In this document: one piece after another, positions 26,869 to 33,572 of the stretch | Layout of the letters: every line of letters starts with the position of its first letter | Numbering within the stretch: the stretch's first letter is position 1 | NCBI GenBank assembly: GCA_031127225.1 | Contig: JARIEV010000004.1 | Coordinates: 1-64,000 of the forward strand | Length of the DNA: 64,000 nt | Direction: 5' to 3' | From: Gemmatimonadota bacterium | GTDB taxonomy: Bacteria; Gemmatimonadota; Gemmatimonadetes; Gemmatimonadales; Gemmatimonadaceae | Notes under the pieces: generated by a model | The model's input: the letters and a program-made list of their open reading frames with translations, nothing else | Told to the model about the DNA's origin: nothing | Databases searched by the model: none | Position numbers and translations under genes: made by a program

Positions 26869-27852
26869 CTAATCGCGAATCCGCACCGCGCGCTGCCGCT
26901 CCCGGTTCACCTCAAGCTGCAGCACGTCGGGGCGCGCGTAGTGCCCCATTGCATCGAAGTTCTGCCGCTCTTCGCGCACTCGCACATGGTGCACGTCGGC
27001 GGCAATGATGCGCTCCTCGTGCGCAACCGGCGCCACCAGCCACACGGCATCGGGACCCGCTATACAGGTGCCACCCTCGCCCATCACCTCGGGCAGCACG
27101 CGCTGCAGCAGCGCGAAGTGCGGCGTCTGCTCCGGCACCTGATCGCGTCGCAGTAGCCCCGCCACCGACATCACGTACGACCGGCCCTCGCGCGCCATGA
27201 AGCGCGTGATCTCCTCCGTATTGCGCACGCTCCCCGGCCACACCGCGACGTGCAGATCTTCCCCCTGCCCATACAGACTGGCGCGCGCGAGCGGCATCCA
27301 GTTCTCCCAGCAATTGAGCGCCCCCAGTGTGAACGCACCCACGCGGTGCGTGCGCAGCCCATGGCCGTCGCCAGGTGACCAGGTGAGTCGCTCTTCGTAG
27401 GTCGGCATCAGTTTGCGATGCACCGTCACCACCGCACCACTGGCGTCGATCGTGACCACGCTGGCGTACACGCTGTGCCCGCCCCGGTCGAGCGGGCGCT
27501 CGATGATGCCCAGCACCACCGTGATCGCCCGGGCCTTCGCGGCCGCGCACACGTCGTCCAGATGCCCCGCCTCGATCTGCACCGCCTGATCGAGGTAGTG
27601 CGCGTGCAGCGCCTTCTGCACCGACGAATCGAAGCGCGCGCCGTCGGTCCACTCGATCCACCACGGATAGCCGGGCACGAACGCTTCAGGAAAGGCCAGC
27701 AGCTGCACCCCATCGTCGGCCGCGGCGTGAATGCCAGCGATCACCTTCACCAGCGTGGCGGCACGGTCCAGCCAAACGGGCGCCATCTGCGCGCCGGCGA
27801 TACGAAGAGAATCGGAAGTCATGACGAAGTCGGTGGGAAACGAATGCGGCAT
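26869..27852 (-). CDS. Carbon-nitrogen hydrolase (nitrilase-like)
   Basis: VQLLAFPEAFVPGYPWWIEW, LMPTYEERLTWSPGDG, LGALNCWENWMPLAR. Start at ATG 27852 (MPHSFPTDFV) supported by coding-type conservation in the scar at 31204-31275. Confidence 0.85.
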   Translation of the reverse strand: MPHSFPTDFVMTSDSLRIAGAQMAPVWLDRAATLVKVIAGIHAAADDGVQLLAFPEAFVPGYPWWIEWTDGARFDSSVQKALHAHYLDQAVQIEAGHLDDVCAAAKARAITVVLGIIERPLDRGGHSVYASVVTIDASGAVVTVHRKLMPTYEERLTWSPGDGHGLRTHRVGAFTLGALNCWENWMPLARASLYGQGEDLHVAVWPGSVRNTEEITRFMAREGRSYVMSVAGLLRRDQVPEQTPHFALLQRVLPEVMGEGGTCIAGPDAVWLVAPVAHEERIIAADVHHVRVREERQNFDAMGHYARPDVLQLEVNRERQRAVRIRD

Positions 27853-27936
27853 AACGCTGGCTTCTGCAGCGCGCTTCCGATTATACCCGACTGCAGCACG
27901 CATCGTGACGCCGGCGCCATTCACACGCTGACGGGT

Positions 27937-28060
27937 GAGCACGATCTCGCCGCCGGCATGCTCAGCTGGTCGCACTCCGGATTTCACGTGCACACCGCCG
28001 TGTGGGAGGACCCCTTCGGCTCCCCGAGGACGATCGCGCCTTTGCCACCCGCCAGTCGGT
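27937..28060 (+). pseudogene. Frameshifted remnant of an IS91-type (Y2) transposase
   Basis: MLSWSHSGFHVHTAVWEDP then, in another frame, PEDDRAFATRQSVLTRVAQY; the LLSWxHSGFxVH pattern is typical of IS91-like transposases (recalled, not searched). Confidence 0.5.
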
Positions 28061-28273: not shown

Positions 28274-28435
28274 GTGTATTTACGGCGTAGTACCTTTTCC
28301 TTCGCGTTCAAGTGGGACCCTGACAAAGCTGCTTCGAACGCGACCAAACACGGGATCGACTTCCGTGAGATCTCTGCCCGTTACGCCAGCCGCGAGGAGC
28401 GACGACGCTATGCACAAACGCCGCGAGGCGGGTAA
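28274..28435 (+). pseudogene. brnT: brnT toxin with an internal in-frame deletion
   Basis: FKWDPDKAASNATKHGIDFRE (BrnT N-terminus) runs directly into ISARYASREERRRYAQ (BrnT C-terminus); the middle is missing. No ATG start. Confidence 0.7.
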
Positions 28436-28823
28436 GTCCAAGATCGTACGGGTGCGGGCCGATCTGGCCACGCCGCGTTCGCGCAAGACCGCGCGCAACA
28501 CCGTGCCCAGTGACGCAGAGATCGAGCAGCGGGCAGCGAACGATCCCGACAACCCGGCACTGACCGCCGCGCAGCTTGCGTCGATGCACCTCTTGCGCGA
28601 CGCACCGCCCAAAGTGTTGTTGAGTCTGCGCGTCGATGCCCACGTGCTGGCCGCCTATCGCCGCAGTGGGAAAGGGTGGCAAACGCGGATGAACGAGGTG
28701 CTGGCAGCGGCGATCACCACGAGTGAGCCGAGTGTGTCCGCGGTCGTTGATGACATCGAAGCGTCGGCACGACGCACGCTGGCCCTTGCACAGCAGTTGC
28801 GGCAGCGCCGCGGGGACAGCTGA
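28410..28823 (+). CDS. brnA: BrnA-type antitoxin
   Basis: DAEIEQRAANDPDNPALTAAQLASM ... KVLLSLRVDAHVLAAYRRSGKGWQTRMNEVLAAAI. Confidence 0.7.
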   Translation: MHKRREAGKSKIVRVRADLATPRSRKTARNTVPSDAEIEQRAANDPDNPALTAAQLASMHLLRDAPPKVLLSLRVDAHVLAAYRRSGKGWQTRMNEVLAAAITTSEPSVSAVVDDIEASARRTLALAQQLRQRRGDS

Positions 28824-28948
28824 CGGTTCGCCGTCGCGGTCGTGCAGACGCTCGCGGCCATGGTGGGCGCGATGCGCACCAAGAGCACCAGCTCGCGATC
28901 GAAACGCTCCGACCACAGGTGATAACGATCGGCAACTGGCGCTGCGCC

Positions 28949-29356
28949 TCAAGCCGATCGCGGAGCCGCGCTGGCGATATCGGTCTCCGAGAAGTCCGCG
29001 CCTTTGTACAGCAGCGGCAGTCCGCGCACCTTCGCCAGCGCATAGCCAAATACGTCGCCGAAGTTGAGTGCGGCAGGATGCCCACTGCCCTTGCCGAAGG
29101 CCACGAATGCCGCATAGGCGGCGTCCATTTCCGCGATCCCCGGCGGAATCAGCTCGAACATCGGCAAGCGCAGCAGATCGTCCACGAGCACGACCGCTCG
29201 CTCGCCACGTCTCCCGTGGACCAGCATGCGCGCCTCGACGACCGAGACCGTGCTCACCAGCACACGCGGCGCGCGCCGGATCACGTCGATGAACGCCTCA
29301 CGTTCCGGTTCCGCGAACACGATGGCAATGATGGCGGACGTGTCAGCAACGATCAC
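28949..29356 (-). CDS. vapC: VapC-type PIN-domain toxin
   Basis: MIVADTSAIIAIVFAEPERE ... HPAALNFGDVFGYALAKVRGLPLLYKGADFSETDI. Confidence 0.9.
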   Translation of the reverse strand: MIVADTSAIIAIVFAEPEREAFIDVIRRAPRVLVSTVSVVEARMLVHGRRGERAVVLVDDLLRLPMFELIPPGIAEMDAAYAAFVAFGKGSGHPAALNFGDVFGYALAKVRGLPLLYKGADFSETDIASAAPRSA

Positions 29357-29592
29357 GCCGGCAATCCGCGCTCATCCCATTGCAGCGGATCGTACGCGTC
29401 CGGTCGGTCGGCGATGCGGTCGAGCTGGGCGAGCAAGGCCTCGAAGCGCTCGGACTGGTGCTGGGCTCCTTCGGATGCACTGATGAGCTGATCCAACGCG
29501 CGCTCCACCACGGCGGTCTTACTGAGGCCGAGGCGTTTTGCCATAAGTTCAACCTTCTGGACGACGACGGGGTTGGCGATTTGCAGCGCCAT
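29353..29592 (-). CDS. vapB: VapB-type antitoxin
   Basis: MALQIANPVVVQKVELMAKRLGLSKTAVVERALDQLI; ATGA overlap with vapC. Confidence 0.85.
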   Translation of the reverse strand: MALQIANPVVVQKVELMAKRLGLSKTAVVERALDQLISASEGAQHQSERFEALLAQLDRIADRPDAYDPLQWDERGLPA

Positions 29593-29603
29593 AGCCGCTC
29601 CGA

Positions 29604-29632
29604 TGTTGATATGTACATCATCAATATACATT
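29604..29632. promoter_or_regulatory. Candidate vapBC operator
   Basis: AT-rich TTGATATGTACATCATCAATATACAT just upstream of vapB; TTGAT/ATCAA inverted arms and a nearby ATGTACAT palindrome. Confidence 0.4.
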
Positions 29633-29712: not shown

Positions 29713-29767
29713 CACGTTACCCGACGAGCCGATCGTGACCACGCTGGGCCTGCTTGGACGCGGACCG

Positions 29768-31015
29768 TCATGGCCCCAGCGCACCAATGGGGATCACCAT
29801 GATGCCATCCTCGCGTCGGTAGGCCCCACCCGTCCCTACGATCACGCCGAGCACACTCGGCGCACCGAGCACGCGCGTATCGACCTTGGCGGCAAACCGG
29901 CGTAGCGACTTCACGGCGTCGTCGATGGCGAAGGTCCCCAATTTGATTTCGAAGGCGCCCCATCGCCCATCGCTGAGCGTGACAATCGCGTCCACCTCCA
30001 GCCCCGTGTTGTCACGGTATTGCTCAACCGTGCCGCGCACGGCGTCCGCATAGACGCGTAAATCGCGGATGACGAGTGATTCAAAGAGTAATCCTGCCAA
30101 TCGCAGGTCCTGCAGCAGCGCGTGCGGGGTCGCGCCGATGGCCGCGGCGGCTAACGCCGGATCCGTGAAGTGCACCACCGGTGCGGAGCGTTGTCGCGAC
30201 CGCGATCGCAAGTGGGTCCCCCACGACTGGAGCGGCTCGATCAGGTGGATGCGAGTCAACGTGTCGAGATACAGCGCGACCGTGTCGGGATCGATTGGCC
30301 GACCCGGTGTCACAGCATCGGCCGCAATGGCGGTCGCCGTCATCGGCCCGCCGCTGTGGCGTGCCAAGGCTCTGATCACGGCGTCCAGTCGCGCCGGTCG
30401 TGGTGTGCGACCGAGGAGCCGTGGAATATCCGCGTGCGCCACCGAGGCGAGGTACTCGCGATGGACGTCGAGCGTGTCGGCGGCCGTGCCTTGCACGCCC
30501 GGGAATCCACCCACGGTCACATGCGACAGCAACTCCGGGACTGTGAGCCCGGTGTCAGCCGCTGTCATGACGTCGGCGTTGAGCAATGCCGCGAGCGACA
30601 CCGCACCGGAACTGACCCCGAGTTCGGCAAGGGTGCAGGGACGCATCTTGATGCGAATGAAGCGGGCAGCACCGGTATGGCGCGTGTCGTTGTCGACGGG
30701 CACCGCCGAACCGGTGAGGATGAACTGGCCAGGCTGCGCGCGATCGTCGATGGCGCCGCGCACACTCCCCCAGATCTCTGGTACCAGTTGCCACTCGTCC
30801 AGCAGTCGTGGTATCGGCCCTCTGAGGAGGGCGTCGGGGGCGGTCTGCGCCAGCAATCGCGCGTTCGGGTCTCGGTCGAACGAGACACTGCTTGCCGCGT
30901 GCTCCAACGCCGTGCGTGTTTTGCCGCAGCCGCGCGGACCGTCGAGGACCACGCCACCGGCGCTTCGGAGCGCGCTGTCGAGGCGCGCGTCAACGATTCT
31001 GGGGCGATAGGTCAC
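29768..31015 (-). CDS. AAA+ ATPase with DUF4143-type C-terminus
   Basis: Walker A GPRGCGKTRTALEH; RLLDEWQLVPEIWGSVR; FILTGSAVP; C-terminal YRDNTGLEVDAIVTLSDGRWGAFEIKLG. Confidence 0.9.
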   Translation of the reverse strand: MTYRPRIVDARLDSALRSAGGVVLDGPRGCGKTRTALEHAASSVSFDRDPNARLLAQTAPDALLRGPIPRLLDEWQLVPEIWGSVRGAIDDRAQPGQFILTGSAVPVDNDTRHTGAARFIRIKMRPCTLAELGVSSGAVSLAALLNADVMTAADTGLTVPELLSHVTVGGFPGVQGTAADTLDVHREYLASVAHADIPRLLGRTPRPARLDAVIRALARHSGGPMTATAIAADAVTPGRPIDPDTVALYLDTLTRIHLIEPLQSWGTHLRSRSRQRSAPVVHFTDPALAAAAIGATPHALLQDLRLAGLLFESLVIRDLRVYADAVRGTVEQYRDNTGLEVDAIVTLSDGRWGAFEIKLGTFAIDDAVKSLRRFAAKVDTRVLGAPSVLGVIVGTGGAYRREDGIMVIPIGALGP

Positions 31016-31080
31016 GTGAAGGGGCGTACCGGGGGCGCGTGGCTGAATATTGGGCGGCTGATGGTGAAAGAAAGCCAGCT

Positions 31081-31188
31081 ATACCGGTTTTTGCAAGTCT
31101 GCTACACGGTATTTTGTACGCTTATTATACGGTTGTTTGCAACTTTTAAATACGGCACTTTGCAATCAATTATCACCGATTTTTGCAA
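31081..31188. repeat. Five-unit direct-repeat (iteron-like) array, 23-bp period
   Basis: ATACCGGTTTTTGCAA(31081) ACACGGTATTTTGTAC(31104) ATACGGTTGTTTGCAA(31127) ATACGGCACTTTGCAA(31150) TCACCGATTTTTGCAA(31173); every offset is exactly 23 bp. Confidence 0.9.
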
Positions 31189-31203
31189 TAAGTAGCGGCC
31201 TGC

Positions 31204-31275
31204 GGCGCCATCTGTGCGCCGGCAATGCGGAGAGAGTCGGAGATCATGACAAAGTCGGTTGGAAAAGAATGCGGC
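31204..31275 (-). pseudogene. Scar: diverged copy of the 5' end of the nitrilase gene
   Basis: Ungapped 72-bp match to 27779-27850 at roughly 86% identity by eye; encodes PHSFPTDFVMISDSLRIAGAQMAP. Confidence 0.85.
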
Positions 31276-31279
31276 CGAA

Positions 31280-31375
31280 CTACTGATCGGGCTCGTGCAT
31301 CCGCACCACCATCCCCGGTCCAGTGAGCGGCTCACGATCGAGACGCAGCTCGATGAACGTGGTCGTGAACGGATG
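31280..31375 (-). pseudogene. Scar: diverged copy of the 3' end of the lipase-like gene
   Basis: HPFTTTFIELRLDREPLTGPGMVVRMHEPDQ* versus HPFTTTFVEVRLDREPLTGAGMVVRLHTSDEAVQP* at 32157-32264. Confidence 0.85.
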
Positions 31376-31401: not shown

Positions 31402-32160
31402 TCAGATAAGGCCCCGCAACGCCGCAAGGCGGGCGGAGAGATACCGTACGTAGTCTGCGCGACGCTGAACCGGGTCGGTGCCCAGCCAGCGATCCGGCAC
31501 CATGTCCACGGCGCCGGCCAGCACTTCGCGCGAGAGCAGCGGTGCCAGCTGCGCGTGCGCGTCGTCCAGCAGCGGCGCCACCCATCCGAACAAATGGCCG
31601 GTCACATCGTACGGACGCACCGCGTGCGCGTCCGTGACCGCGCTCCAGTCGTGATGAAAGGGCAGCGCCGCGCCGTGATCAATCAGCCAGATCGTGCCGC
31701 GGCGGATCATCAGGTTGGGATTGCGCAGGGAGCGGTCGAAATTCTGCACCACGGTATCCAACCAGAGCACGCGCGCGGCCACGTACAGATCGACGCCGGG
31801 CACTTCGGCGGCGGTCAGATCGCGCGCCGCCTCCAGCACCGTGAACCCCAGATTGAGTCCCGCGCTCGCATCCAACAGGTCGCGTAGCTCGTCGTTGATA
31901 TCGTCACTGGGCACGGCCGCGGGCAGCGTCACCAGCACGCGGGGCGGCACCGACAGCCCGATCGCCTCCGCCAGTTCAGCCACGATCACCTCCGCAATGA
32001 GCGGTGCCACGCCCTGCGATGCGCCGTGCAGTTTCGTGAACCACGCCCCCGAGGGGGAATCCACGATCACGGGAAGCGAACTACCACGCCGCTCACGGCG
32101 CAACACGCGGGTGCTCTCCACCTGCGGCAAGGCGGCGCACCGTGACGCAACGCGGCTCAT
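31402..32160 (-). CDS. HipA-like kinase-domain protein
   Basis: FTKLHGASQGVAPLIAEVIVAELAEAIGLSVP; NFDRSLRNPNLMIRRGTIWLIDHGAALPF; ATGA overlap with the upstream lipase-like gene. Confidence 0.7.
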   Translation of the reverse strand: MSRVASRCAALPQVESTRVLRRERRGSSLPVIVDSPSGAWFTKLHGASQGVAPLIAEVIVAELAEAIGLSVPPRVLVTLPAAVPSDDINDELRDLLDASAGLNLGFTVLEAARDLTAAEVPGVDLYVAARVLWLDTVVQNFDRSLRNPNLMIRRGTIWLIDHGAALPFHHDWSAVTDAHAVRPYDVTGHLFGWVAPLLDDAHAQLAPLLSREVLAGAVDMVPDRWLGTDPVQRRADYVRYLSARLAALRGLI

Positions 32161-33572
32161 GGTTGCACAGCCTCGTCGGAGGTGTGCAGCCGCACCACCA
32201 TCCCCGCCCCCGTGAGCGGCTCGCGATCGAGGCGCACCTCCACGAACGTCGTGGTGAACGGGTGAAAAAAGCGCACGTCCCCACCGGGGAGAATGCTGGA
32301 AAGATCGAGCGACCCATGCCACGTGCCGGCGCGATCGGGGACGCCCGTTGGCGCGGGGTCCGTCAGCGCGCCGGTGTAGTGCACCCGCGACGTGCCCGTG
32401 CTGGCGTACAGCTGCGCCGTTAACCGTCGCGGGCGGCTACCCAGCAGCGACGCGCGCGCGAGCGACGACAGATTCACGTGGAAGCAGCGATAACTGGGAT
32501 CGCCGCGATACACGTGCACGTCCTGCGCGAAAGCGTCGATGGCGGAACCGTCTCGGAGCGCCAGCTGCAGATTCCAATCGGGAATCGCGTCGCCGCGCTC
32601 GTCGACGGCGCGCACCACGAACTGCTGCCACGGCACCATCGCCTCGCGCGTGGCACGCACGGCCGCGTCGGCCGCGGTGCGCCACGCCGTATACCGGCCG
32701 CGCGACGACACGCGCAGCGCGTCGATCACCAGCTGCTGCAGCGCGGGCGGTGGGGCCGACAAAATCGTACCGTGATCCACACCCGCCACGGGATGCATGG
32801 GGACGTCATCGTGCGTCCAGTGCTTCACCTGCACGCGCGCCGCGTCGGCACACTCGGCCGTGAGATCGAGCACGATTTTGCGGCTGTTCAACGCGCAGCC
32901 AGCCCAGCGCACGGTGCCGTCGGTCCCGGGGCTGTTGGCAATCGCACGGACCCCGCGGGCACCACGCGCTCCACAGAACACGAACACATACGGCGTGTCG
33001 CGGCCAGTATCGTAGAAGCAGCTGTCGCCGAACAGATCGGCCTGCGACAGCTCCCAGCTGAACCGGCTCCCCAGCTCGAGCGCGTCGAGCACCTGATTGC
33101 CCGCCTCGAGAAAATCGGGGCCGGGGGTTTTGCGTCCCTTGACGAGTGCGCCGAGGAAGCTGCGCCCCTTGTGCGCGAGCGGCGATCCGAAGGTGGCCGG
33201 CGCCAGCGCGATCAGGTGTTTGAGCCGCGCGCGCCGTGCCGCCGTCATGCCGCGCCGCGTCAGCCACGCGCGCAACACCAGCATGCCCGTGGAGTGTACC
33301 ATCACGTCGAACGGTTCGTCGTCCGCCAGTCCGACCCGCTGCCGCAGCAACGTGTCGAATCCTTCGGCGATATCGCGTACCGACACTTCGTTGGTGAGCG
33401 ACTCGTAGCTCACCGTCACCAGTTGCCGGGAGCTCCAACCGGCTGCGTGCAAGATGCGGTGCCACGCGGCGAAGGCGTCGCCGTCGGCACTGTACCCGTG
33501 CAGCAGAATCAGCGGCCGGACCGCCGCGCGCCGGACAGTCGGGCTCACTAGCGCGTGTGCGACACGAGCCAC
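32157..33572 (-). CDS. Alpha/beta-hydrolase (lipase-like) with C-terminal extension
   Basis: PLILLHGYSADGDAFAAW; VMVHSTGMLVLRAWL; LKHLIALAPATFGSPLAHKG. Confidence 0.7.
   Translation of the reverse strand: MARVAHALVSPTVRRAAVRPLILLHGYSADGDAFAAWHRILHAAGWSSRQLVTVSYESLTNEVSVRDIAEGFDTLLRQRVGLADDEPFDVMVHSTGMLVLRAWLTRRGMTAARRARLKHLIALAPATFGSPLAHKGRSFLGALVKGRKTPGPDFLEAGNQVLDALELGSRFSWELSQADLFGDSCFYDTGRDTPYVFVFCGARGARGVRAIANSPGTDGTVRWAGCALNSRKIVLDLTAECADAARVQVKHWTHDDVPMHPVAGVDHGTILSAPPPALQQLVIDALRVSSRGRYTAWRTAADAAVRATREAMVPWQQFVVRAVDERGDAIPDWNLQLALRDGSAIDAFAQDVHVYRGDPSYRCFHVNLSSLARASLLGSRPRRLTAQLYASTGTSRVHYTGALTDPAPTGVPDRAGTWHGSLDLSSILPGGDVRFFHPFTTTFVEVRLDREPLTGAGMVVRLHTSDEAVQP

Follow-up and report, generated by a model that had tools for sequence, protein, structure and literature searches.

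A 23-bp-phased repeat array upstream of an AAA_14-DUF4143 ATPase gene as a probable autoregulatory operator

The array and the gene behind it

The window is the whole 64,000-nucleotide stretch of contig JARIEV010000004.1 that was analysed, from a Gemmatimonadota bacterium (assembly GCA_031127225.1). Its reverse strand carries the gene of an AAA_14 and DUF4143 ATPase, and upstream of this gene, at positions 31081-31188, lie five 16-bp units separated by 7-bp spacers, every offset being exactly 23 bp. The unit starts given in the original prediction (31081, 31104, 31127, 31150 and 31173) and their constant 23-bp offset are borne out by the sequence, as is the AT-richness of the array (GC 0.36 vs 0.68 for the window). 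The distance between the array and the ATPase start codon at 31015 on the reverse strand is indeed 66 bp, and the alignment of homologues supports this GTG as the start. In the gene sense the units follow the pattern TTGCAA-A(2-3)-N-CCG-TAT or come near to it, and each is followed by an unrelated 7-bp spacer. The features of the locus are as follows.

31173-31188, reverse strand: array unit 1, farthest from the gene, TTGCAAAAATCGGTGA in the gene-sense reading
31150-31165, reverse strand: array unit 2, TTGCAAAGTGCCGTAT in the gene-sense reading
31127-31142, reverse strand: array unit 3, TTGCAAACAACCGTAT, then AATAAGC; a TATAAT at 31129-31124 straddles unit and spacer
31104-31119, reverse strand: array unit 4, degenerate, GTACAAAATACCGTGT
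31081-31096, reverse strand: array unit 5, nearest to the gene, TTGCAAAAACCGGTAT; its TTGCAA is the putative -35 box in relatives
29768-31015, reverse strand: AAA_14 and DUF4143 ATPase, 415 residues, GTG start; predicted AAA+, winged-helix and PD-(D/E)XK-like parts; PADLOC PDC-S01 (PDLC04790)
30917-30940, reverse strand: Walker A motif GPRGCGKT, residues 26-33; K32 is invariant in 215 of 215 homologues
30284-30292, reverse strand: residues 242-244 (DPD), at the N-terminus of the predicted winged-helix recognition helix 243-255; covary with the right half-unit
30005-30013, reverse strand: residues 335-337 (DNT), in the nuclease-like domain at the tip of the hairpin formed by strands 328-335 and 340-347; covary with the left half-unit
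29942-29998, reverse strand: E340-x-D342 ... E356-x-K358, a PD-(D/E)XK-type motif kept in about 98% of 215 homologues
29754-31210, reverse strand: block of array and ATPase gene, 98% identical to that of a congeneric species (G173), with different flanks on both sides

The weakest of the five units is the second by coordinate (31104-31119, ACACGGTATTTTGTAC), and the TATAAT that had been pointed out on the reverse strand at 31129-31124 is present. Within a 400-bp region the lag-23 segment scores 23, the maximum in 1000 dinucleotide shuffles being 13; in the entire 64 kb it is outscored by just two 15-bp tandem repeats. TRF at a score of 40 leaves the array unreported because the spacers are unrelated. 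The units had been thought to lie on one face of the DNA, which is wrong: at 10.5 bp per turn, 23 bp amounts to 2.19 helical turns, and each unit is therefore rotated by about 69° relative to the preceding one. A CRISPR array, for which identical repeats of about 25-35 bp, spacers of similar length and cas genes were required, was rejected, as the units are imperfect, 16 bp long and separated by 7-bp gaps, and a scan of neighbouring proteins revealed no cas genes.

The protein matches PF13635 (99 bits) and PF13173 (41 bits), both above cut-off, and the PADLOC profile PDLC04790 (PDC-S01) along residues 2-413 with an E-value of 3e-59. In its AlphaFold2 model (mean pLDDT 91.7), an AAA+ core is followed by a winged-helix region, and the C-terminal part forms an alpha-beta-beta-beta-alpha unit made of helix 304-325, strands 328-335, 340-347 and 352-358, and helix 361-377. 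Residues E312, D342, E356 and K358, together with the Walker A and B motifs, are kept in 98-100% of the 215 homologues. The E...D...ExK signature of PD-(D/E)XK enzymes is thus found on the expected core, and the protein appears to have a nuclease fold of this type and is predicted to be a nuclease. The winged-helix and nuclease-fold assignments are drawn from secondary structure, motifs and fold matches. Foldseek finds the archaeal AAA+ ATPases 2qen and 2fna and Cdc6/Orc1 on DNA at low TM scores; the match to Cdc6/Orc1 2qby has an E-value of 2e-5, yet a TM of only 0.28. A sequence search of the PDB gave only weak AAA matches and no DUF4143 structure, and the viral contigs searched with the protein contained no match.

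The window's own genome also contains a C-terminal fragment (residues 273-415) of a second close paralogue, 63% identical (L137, G000:C120:12143-12571).

The array as a family feature

The search for homologues covered the phylum of the window, named genomes of many phyla, one related family and plasmids. Their upstream regions were scanned for periods of 17-30 bp, with in-gene stretches as the control and the 99th percentile as the threshold. Of 175 distinct homologues with 40% identity or more to the window protein, 152 have an above-control array, and the best period is exactly 23 in 141. At 30-40% identity the array is found in 12 of 14 (period 23 in 11), and below 30% in 17 of 26 (period 23 in 11 and 22 in 4). 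About 20 phyla are represented among the named genomes with an array, and arrays are also carried by annotated plasmids of Bacteroides, Collinsella, Prosthecochloris and Lentilactobacillus. Arrays mostly contain 3-7 units, four being the commonest number, and some lie 130-200 bp from the aligned start.

The wider DUF4143 family served as a control; its other subfamilies, with Walker A motifs such as GARQVGKT, are mostly without an array. Three Bacteroidota genes with the Walker A motif GPRQSGKT (L218, L320 and L322) have arrays with a 22-bp period (TAAGTTCATGTAATTTCAAAAT) that end near the start codon, and they constitute a second array-bearing DUF4143 subfamily with a different period. A strong period-21 signal at another locus (L223) was rejected as an array, since it stems from a distant upstream tract of unrelated short repeats.

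The period, position and orientation of the arrays are constant while the unit sequence varies between paralogues and clades: units may begin TTGCAA..., read TTGAAA...TGTCTC, or have the form of CGCCGAATCACCCG, GCCAAATCTGCCGCT, TCATATTTCTGCCG and others. The original prediction had staked its case on TTTGCAA arrays phased at about 23 bp upstream of homologous ATPases. The phased arrays are there at most homologues; TTTGCAA is one of many unit sequences. In one genome (G017), for example, six paralogues have different units and the same period of 23, and the reader must therefore be gene-specific. A seventh paralogue in this genome is split (L307, G017:C1:2413000-2418500), its residues 1-348 and 341-416 lying about 1.4 kb apart, apparently because of an insertion sequence with an IS3-type transposase ORF.

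Within arrays, the core positions carry 0.7-1.0 bit of information and the spacers 0.5-0.6, which is near the 0.37 of unrelated units. As the cores are more informative than the spacers, the units are kept alike by selection and not by recent duplication. Pattern searches for sites in trans detected no excess of units outside the array, either in the window's genome or in a complete genome with six paralogues, and the unit therefore acts in cis.

Covariation of protein residues and unit bases

Unit similarity drops as the proteins diverge (Mantel r 0.50). Shared descent alone could produce this value, and the Mantel test was therefore judged insufficient and was replaced by partial correlations for half-sites and by phylogenetically disjoint pairs. 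Only the similarity of the units and the overall identity of the proteins were used to register the arrays. In 139 arrays of the main clade, each variable protein column was scored against the similarity of the left half-unit, the right half-unit and the spacer, with overall identity and the other half removed.

The left half-unit covaries most strongly with residues 336 (0.55), 337 (0.50) and 335 (0.41), and the right half-unit with residues 244 (0.43) and 242 (0.28); for the spacer, no protein column exceeds 0.15 in these 139 arrays. Over all arrays, histidine at position 244 is always accompanied by G at unit base 11 (62 of 62), and aspartate by C in 22 of 24. The pairing persists in the non-redundant set (His244 with G, 16/16; Asp244 with C, 17/19) and in 45 arrays from phyla other than that of the window (5/5 and 11/13, respectively). 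In the non-redundant set, TT(G/A)C is the usual partner of Asn336 and CGCC that of Lys336; one exception (L185) has Asn336 paired with TTGAAA. The window protein (N336, D244) and its array (TTGCAA, C at base 11) fit this code.

The disjoint pairs, by which shared ancestry was removed, were taken from a tree built without the covarying columns. Base 11 switches in all nine phylogenetically independent pairs that have histidine in one member and an acidic residue in the other at position 244. When the loop changes, the similarity of the left half falls from 0.85 to 0.52 (39 distance-limited disjoint pairs, p 2e-4) and the right half is unaffected (p 0.95). When the helix changes, the right half falls from 0.79 to 0.38 (39 distance-limited disjoint pairs, p 1e-5) and the left half is unaffected (p 0.78); the spacer similarity shifts as well, to a smaller extent. 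The N336/K336 switch is represented by only four independent pairs with a mixed outcome, and the evidence for the left half therefore rests on all changes at 336 and 337.

One mark of an operator, protein residues that covary with its bases, is thus present. The array, its constant period and position, its uniqueness in the genome and the residue-to-base code are all computed properties. The original suggestion of an operator or iteron to which the ATPase binds, possibly to regulate its own gene, gains support from this covariation and from the phased arrays of most homologues.

Relation to the promoter

A second mark, a site at the gene's own promoter, is found in the relatives from the spacing of the -35 and -10 boxes to the last unit. 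In genes with Asn or His at 336, anchored on the last unit, a TAnnnT occurs 17 bp after TTGCAA, which then becomes the -35 box. In genes with Lys or Asp at this position, a -35-like box begins 5 bp past the last unit, with a -10-like box about another 17 bp downstream. The arrays of the relatives, as judged by this spacing, overlap or abut the predicted sigma70-like promoter of their own gene, which is the anatomy of an autoregulatory operator. Repression would be more probable than activation, because the array overlaps the -35 box. In the window itself, a sigma70 consensus scan of the region yielded no promoter-like site, and the expected -10 position is occupied by TTTCTT instead of TAnnnT, with no recognisable -10.

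In a clade of 33-39% identity (L106, L110, L115 and L116), every unit ends in GGTATA(A/G)TA. Each unit may thus contain a -10-like element, so that the promoter would be embedded in the array.

Readings of the array as part of an RNA leader or as a phase-variation tract were dropped, since the arrays of relatives sit at or upstream of the -35 box. The DUF4143 gene TT_P0211 of Thermus thermophilus rises 6.6-fold with a plasmid present in an Argonaute-bearing strain (PMC4406477); as a lead only, this indicates that genes of the wide DUF4143 family can be inducible.

Proposed mechanism

By combining these findings, it is possible to describe how the array might work. It is probably an autoregulatory operator, and the protein that binds it would be the product of the gene behind it. 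Each 16-bp unit would be a bipartite site, its right half read by residues 242-244 of the winged-helix recognition helix and its left half by residues 335-337 in the hairpin beside the nuclease active site. Each unit would hold about one protomer, and 3-7 protomers would form a spiral with one protomer every 23 bp. Occupancy of the array would then control transcription of the gene, more probably by repression, since the array overlaps or directly abuts the -35 box of its own sigma70-type promoter. The lone ATPase-nuclease would thus be kept scarce, and derepression might follow titration of the protein, a change of its nucleotide state or its activation.

A purely regulatory role leaves the conserved nuclease residues unexplained. 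The array might be read by the encoded protein mainly for a purpose other than transcription, either as a docking or assembly platform, in the manner of ORC- and DnaA-type AAA+ proteins, on which the nuclease is kept resting or primed, or as a defence target that is itself sensed or cut. This is unlikely, although the retention of the Walker A/B and PD-(D/E)XK residues in 98-100% of homologues is what it would lead one to expect, and the predicted base-reading hairpin is only six residues from the predicted catalytic D342. The fold similarity to archaeal AAA+ ATPases and DNA-bound Cdc6/Orc1 points the same way, but the TM to ORC proteins is low (0.2-0.4). PDC-S01 is also listed among phage defence candidates (PADLOC; PMC12988326). 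The position at the gene's own promoter, however, is needed by an operator and not by a pure platform.

The two roles might be joined, and we consider this a tentative possibility with a modest chance of being right. The array would then be the sensor or safe dock of a single-gene defence system as well, in which an AAA+ nuclease is parked on a private, fast-diversifying sequence that occurs nowhere but at its own promoter and is partly read by a loop beside the catalytic centre. An invader that displaced the protein would cause both its release and its overexpression.

Neighbourhood and mobility

The ATPase gene lies in a stretch rich in toxin-antitoxin and defence genes: the segments 28365-29631 and 31402-32322 around it contain a VapB/VapC pair and an ORF for a BrnA-type antitoxin, as well as a HipA_2-type kinase that matches PADLOC PDC-M66A. 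The neighbours on the contig resemble ordinary chromosomal genes.

It is very improbable that the array is bound by a separate host regulator, be it a housekeeping factor or, for example, the VapB-type ribbon-helix-helix protein encoded nearby. The VapB/VapC pair does lie just downstream, and ribbon-helix-helix proteins often occupy tandem operators. Against such a regulator, the units differ between paralogues of one cell and track the ATPase's own residues, and no neighbouring family is conserved: among 50 divergent loci, no flanking ORF family is common to more than two, and the ATPase itself is therefore most likely the reader of the array.

The block that is 98% identical in the congeneric species begins 22 bp upstream of the array and ends 14 bp past the stop codon. 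It comprises exactly the array and the gene, and these form one transferable module. The block adjoins fragments of nitrilase (CN_hydrolase) genes in both genomes, and these edges are what would speak for the array as a mobile-element end or a site of recombination. The array, however, is one-sided, adjacent to a promoter and found in many unrelated contexts with no flanking recombinase in common, so that such an end, which had been suggested, has only a slight chance of being the main explanation; what stands is that array and gene travel together.

The nitrilase fragment in the window is the 5' part of a gene of this family (31204-31280), directly upstream of the array, and an intact copy lies at 26869-27993, 3.3 kb from the fragment. 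In the congeneric genome the corresponding place holds a different fragment of the same gene (L136 9202-9225), and an intact copy lies at L136 1302-2483. The locus has the appearance of a spot where insertions recur.

That the array is a functionless by-product of vertical descent, tandem duplication and drift has a negligible probability: shared ancestry would give the observed fall of unit similarity with protein divergence, but the spacers are unrelated while the cores are alike, the period of 23 holds across phyla, and the residue-specific covariation survives phylogenetic pairing, with a double dissociation that contradicts this reading.

Comparison with known systems

Repeat operators bound by the product of their own gene are known from iteron/Rep systems, from the control proteins of restriction-modification systems and from toxin-antitoxin operons, and iteron-binding Rep initiators of plasmids autoregulate. 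The iteron/Rep systems generally have phased direct repeats of about 20-23 bp beside the gene of a winged-helix binder, with occupancy tied to its own promoter, which resembles the arrangement described here. The window gene differs in being chromosomal, without a Rep domain or replication origin, and its protein is an AAA+ ATPase with a nuclease fold and two separate predicted reading elements. An iteron-controlled replicon was rejected for this locus, as the protein is of the AAA_14-DUF4143 type and not a Rep-type initiator with an origin.

The control proteins of restriction-modification systems and type II toxin-antitoxin operators are, in general, similar in that a risky nuclease is held by a repeated operator at its own promoter and that many insulated paralogues occur per genome. 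The window system, in contrast, is without a separate controller, antitoxin or methylase, and a single polypeptide is predicted to be both reader and effector.

Cdc6/Orc1 binds repeated origin boxes. Like archaeal Cdc6/Orc1 and the proteins 2fna and 2qen, the window protein has an AAA+ core followed by a predicted winged helix. The TM is only 0.28-0.42, however, and the window protein has an additional C-terminal nuclease-like domain that apparently reads bases; unlike those of Cdc6/Orc1, its predicted sites are at its own promoter.

By profile search the window protein is a member of PADLOC PDC-S01 and Pfam AAA_14-DUF4143. In the literature searched (subscription papers and preprints lay outside it), DUF4143 is named in one paper out of 5.39 million, and no upstream array, DNA recognition code or autoregulation was found for this family, nor any phased array read by an AAA+/winged-helix/nuclease protein with a hairpin on the nuclease side as base reader. 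The self-bound operator itself is thus a known arrangement; what appears new is a phased array with a reader of this kind.

Significance

PDC-S01 reportedly ranks fourth in abundance among the defence candidates of prokaryotes, and experimental validation is described as pending for most PDCs (PMC12988326). The near-universal and exactly phased self-recognition array offers a first mechanistic handle on the family: it points to the DNA that is probably bound and to two sites predicted to read bases, and it supplies many orthogonal pairs of protein and site. The findings further suggest that a hairpin of a nuclease fold may serve as a sequence reader. With this handle, the function of the PDC-S01 ATPases becomes directly testable.
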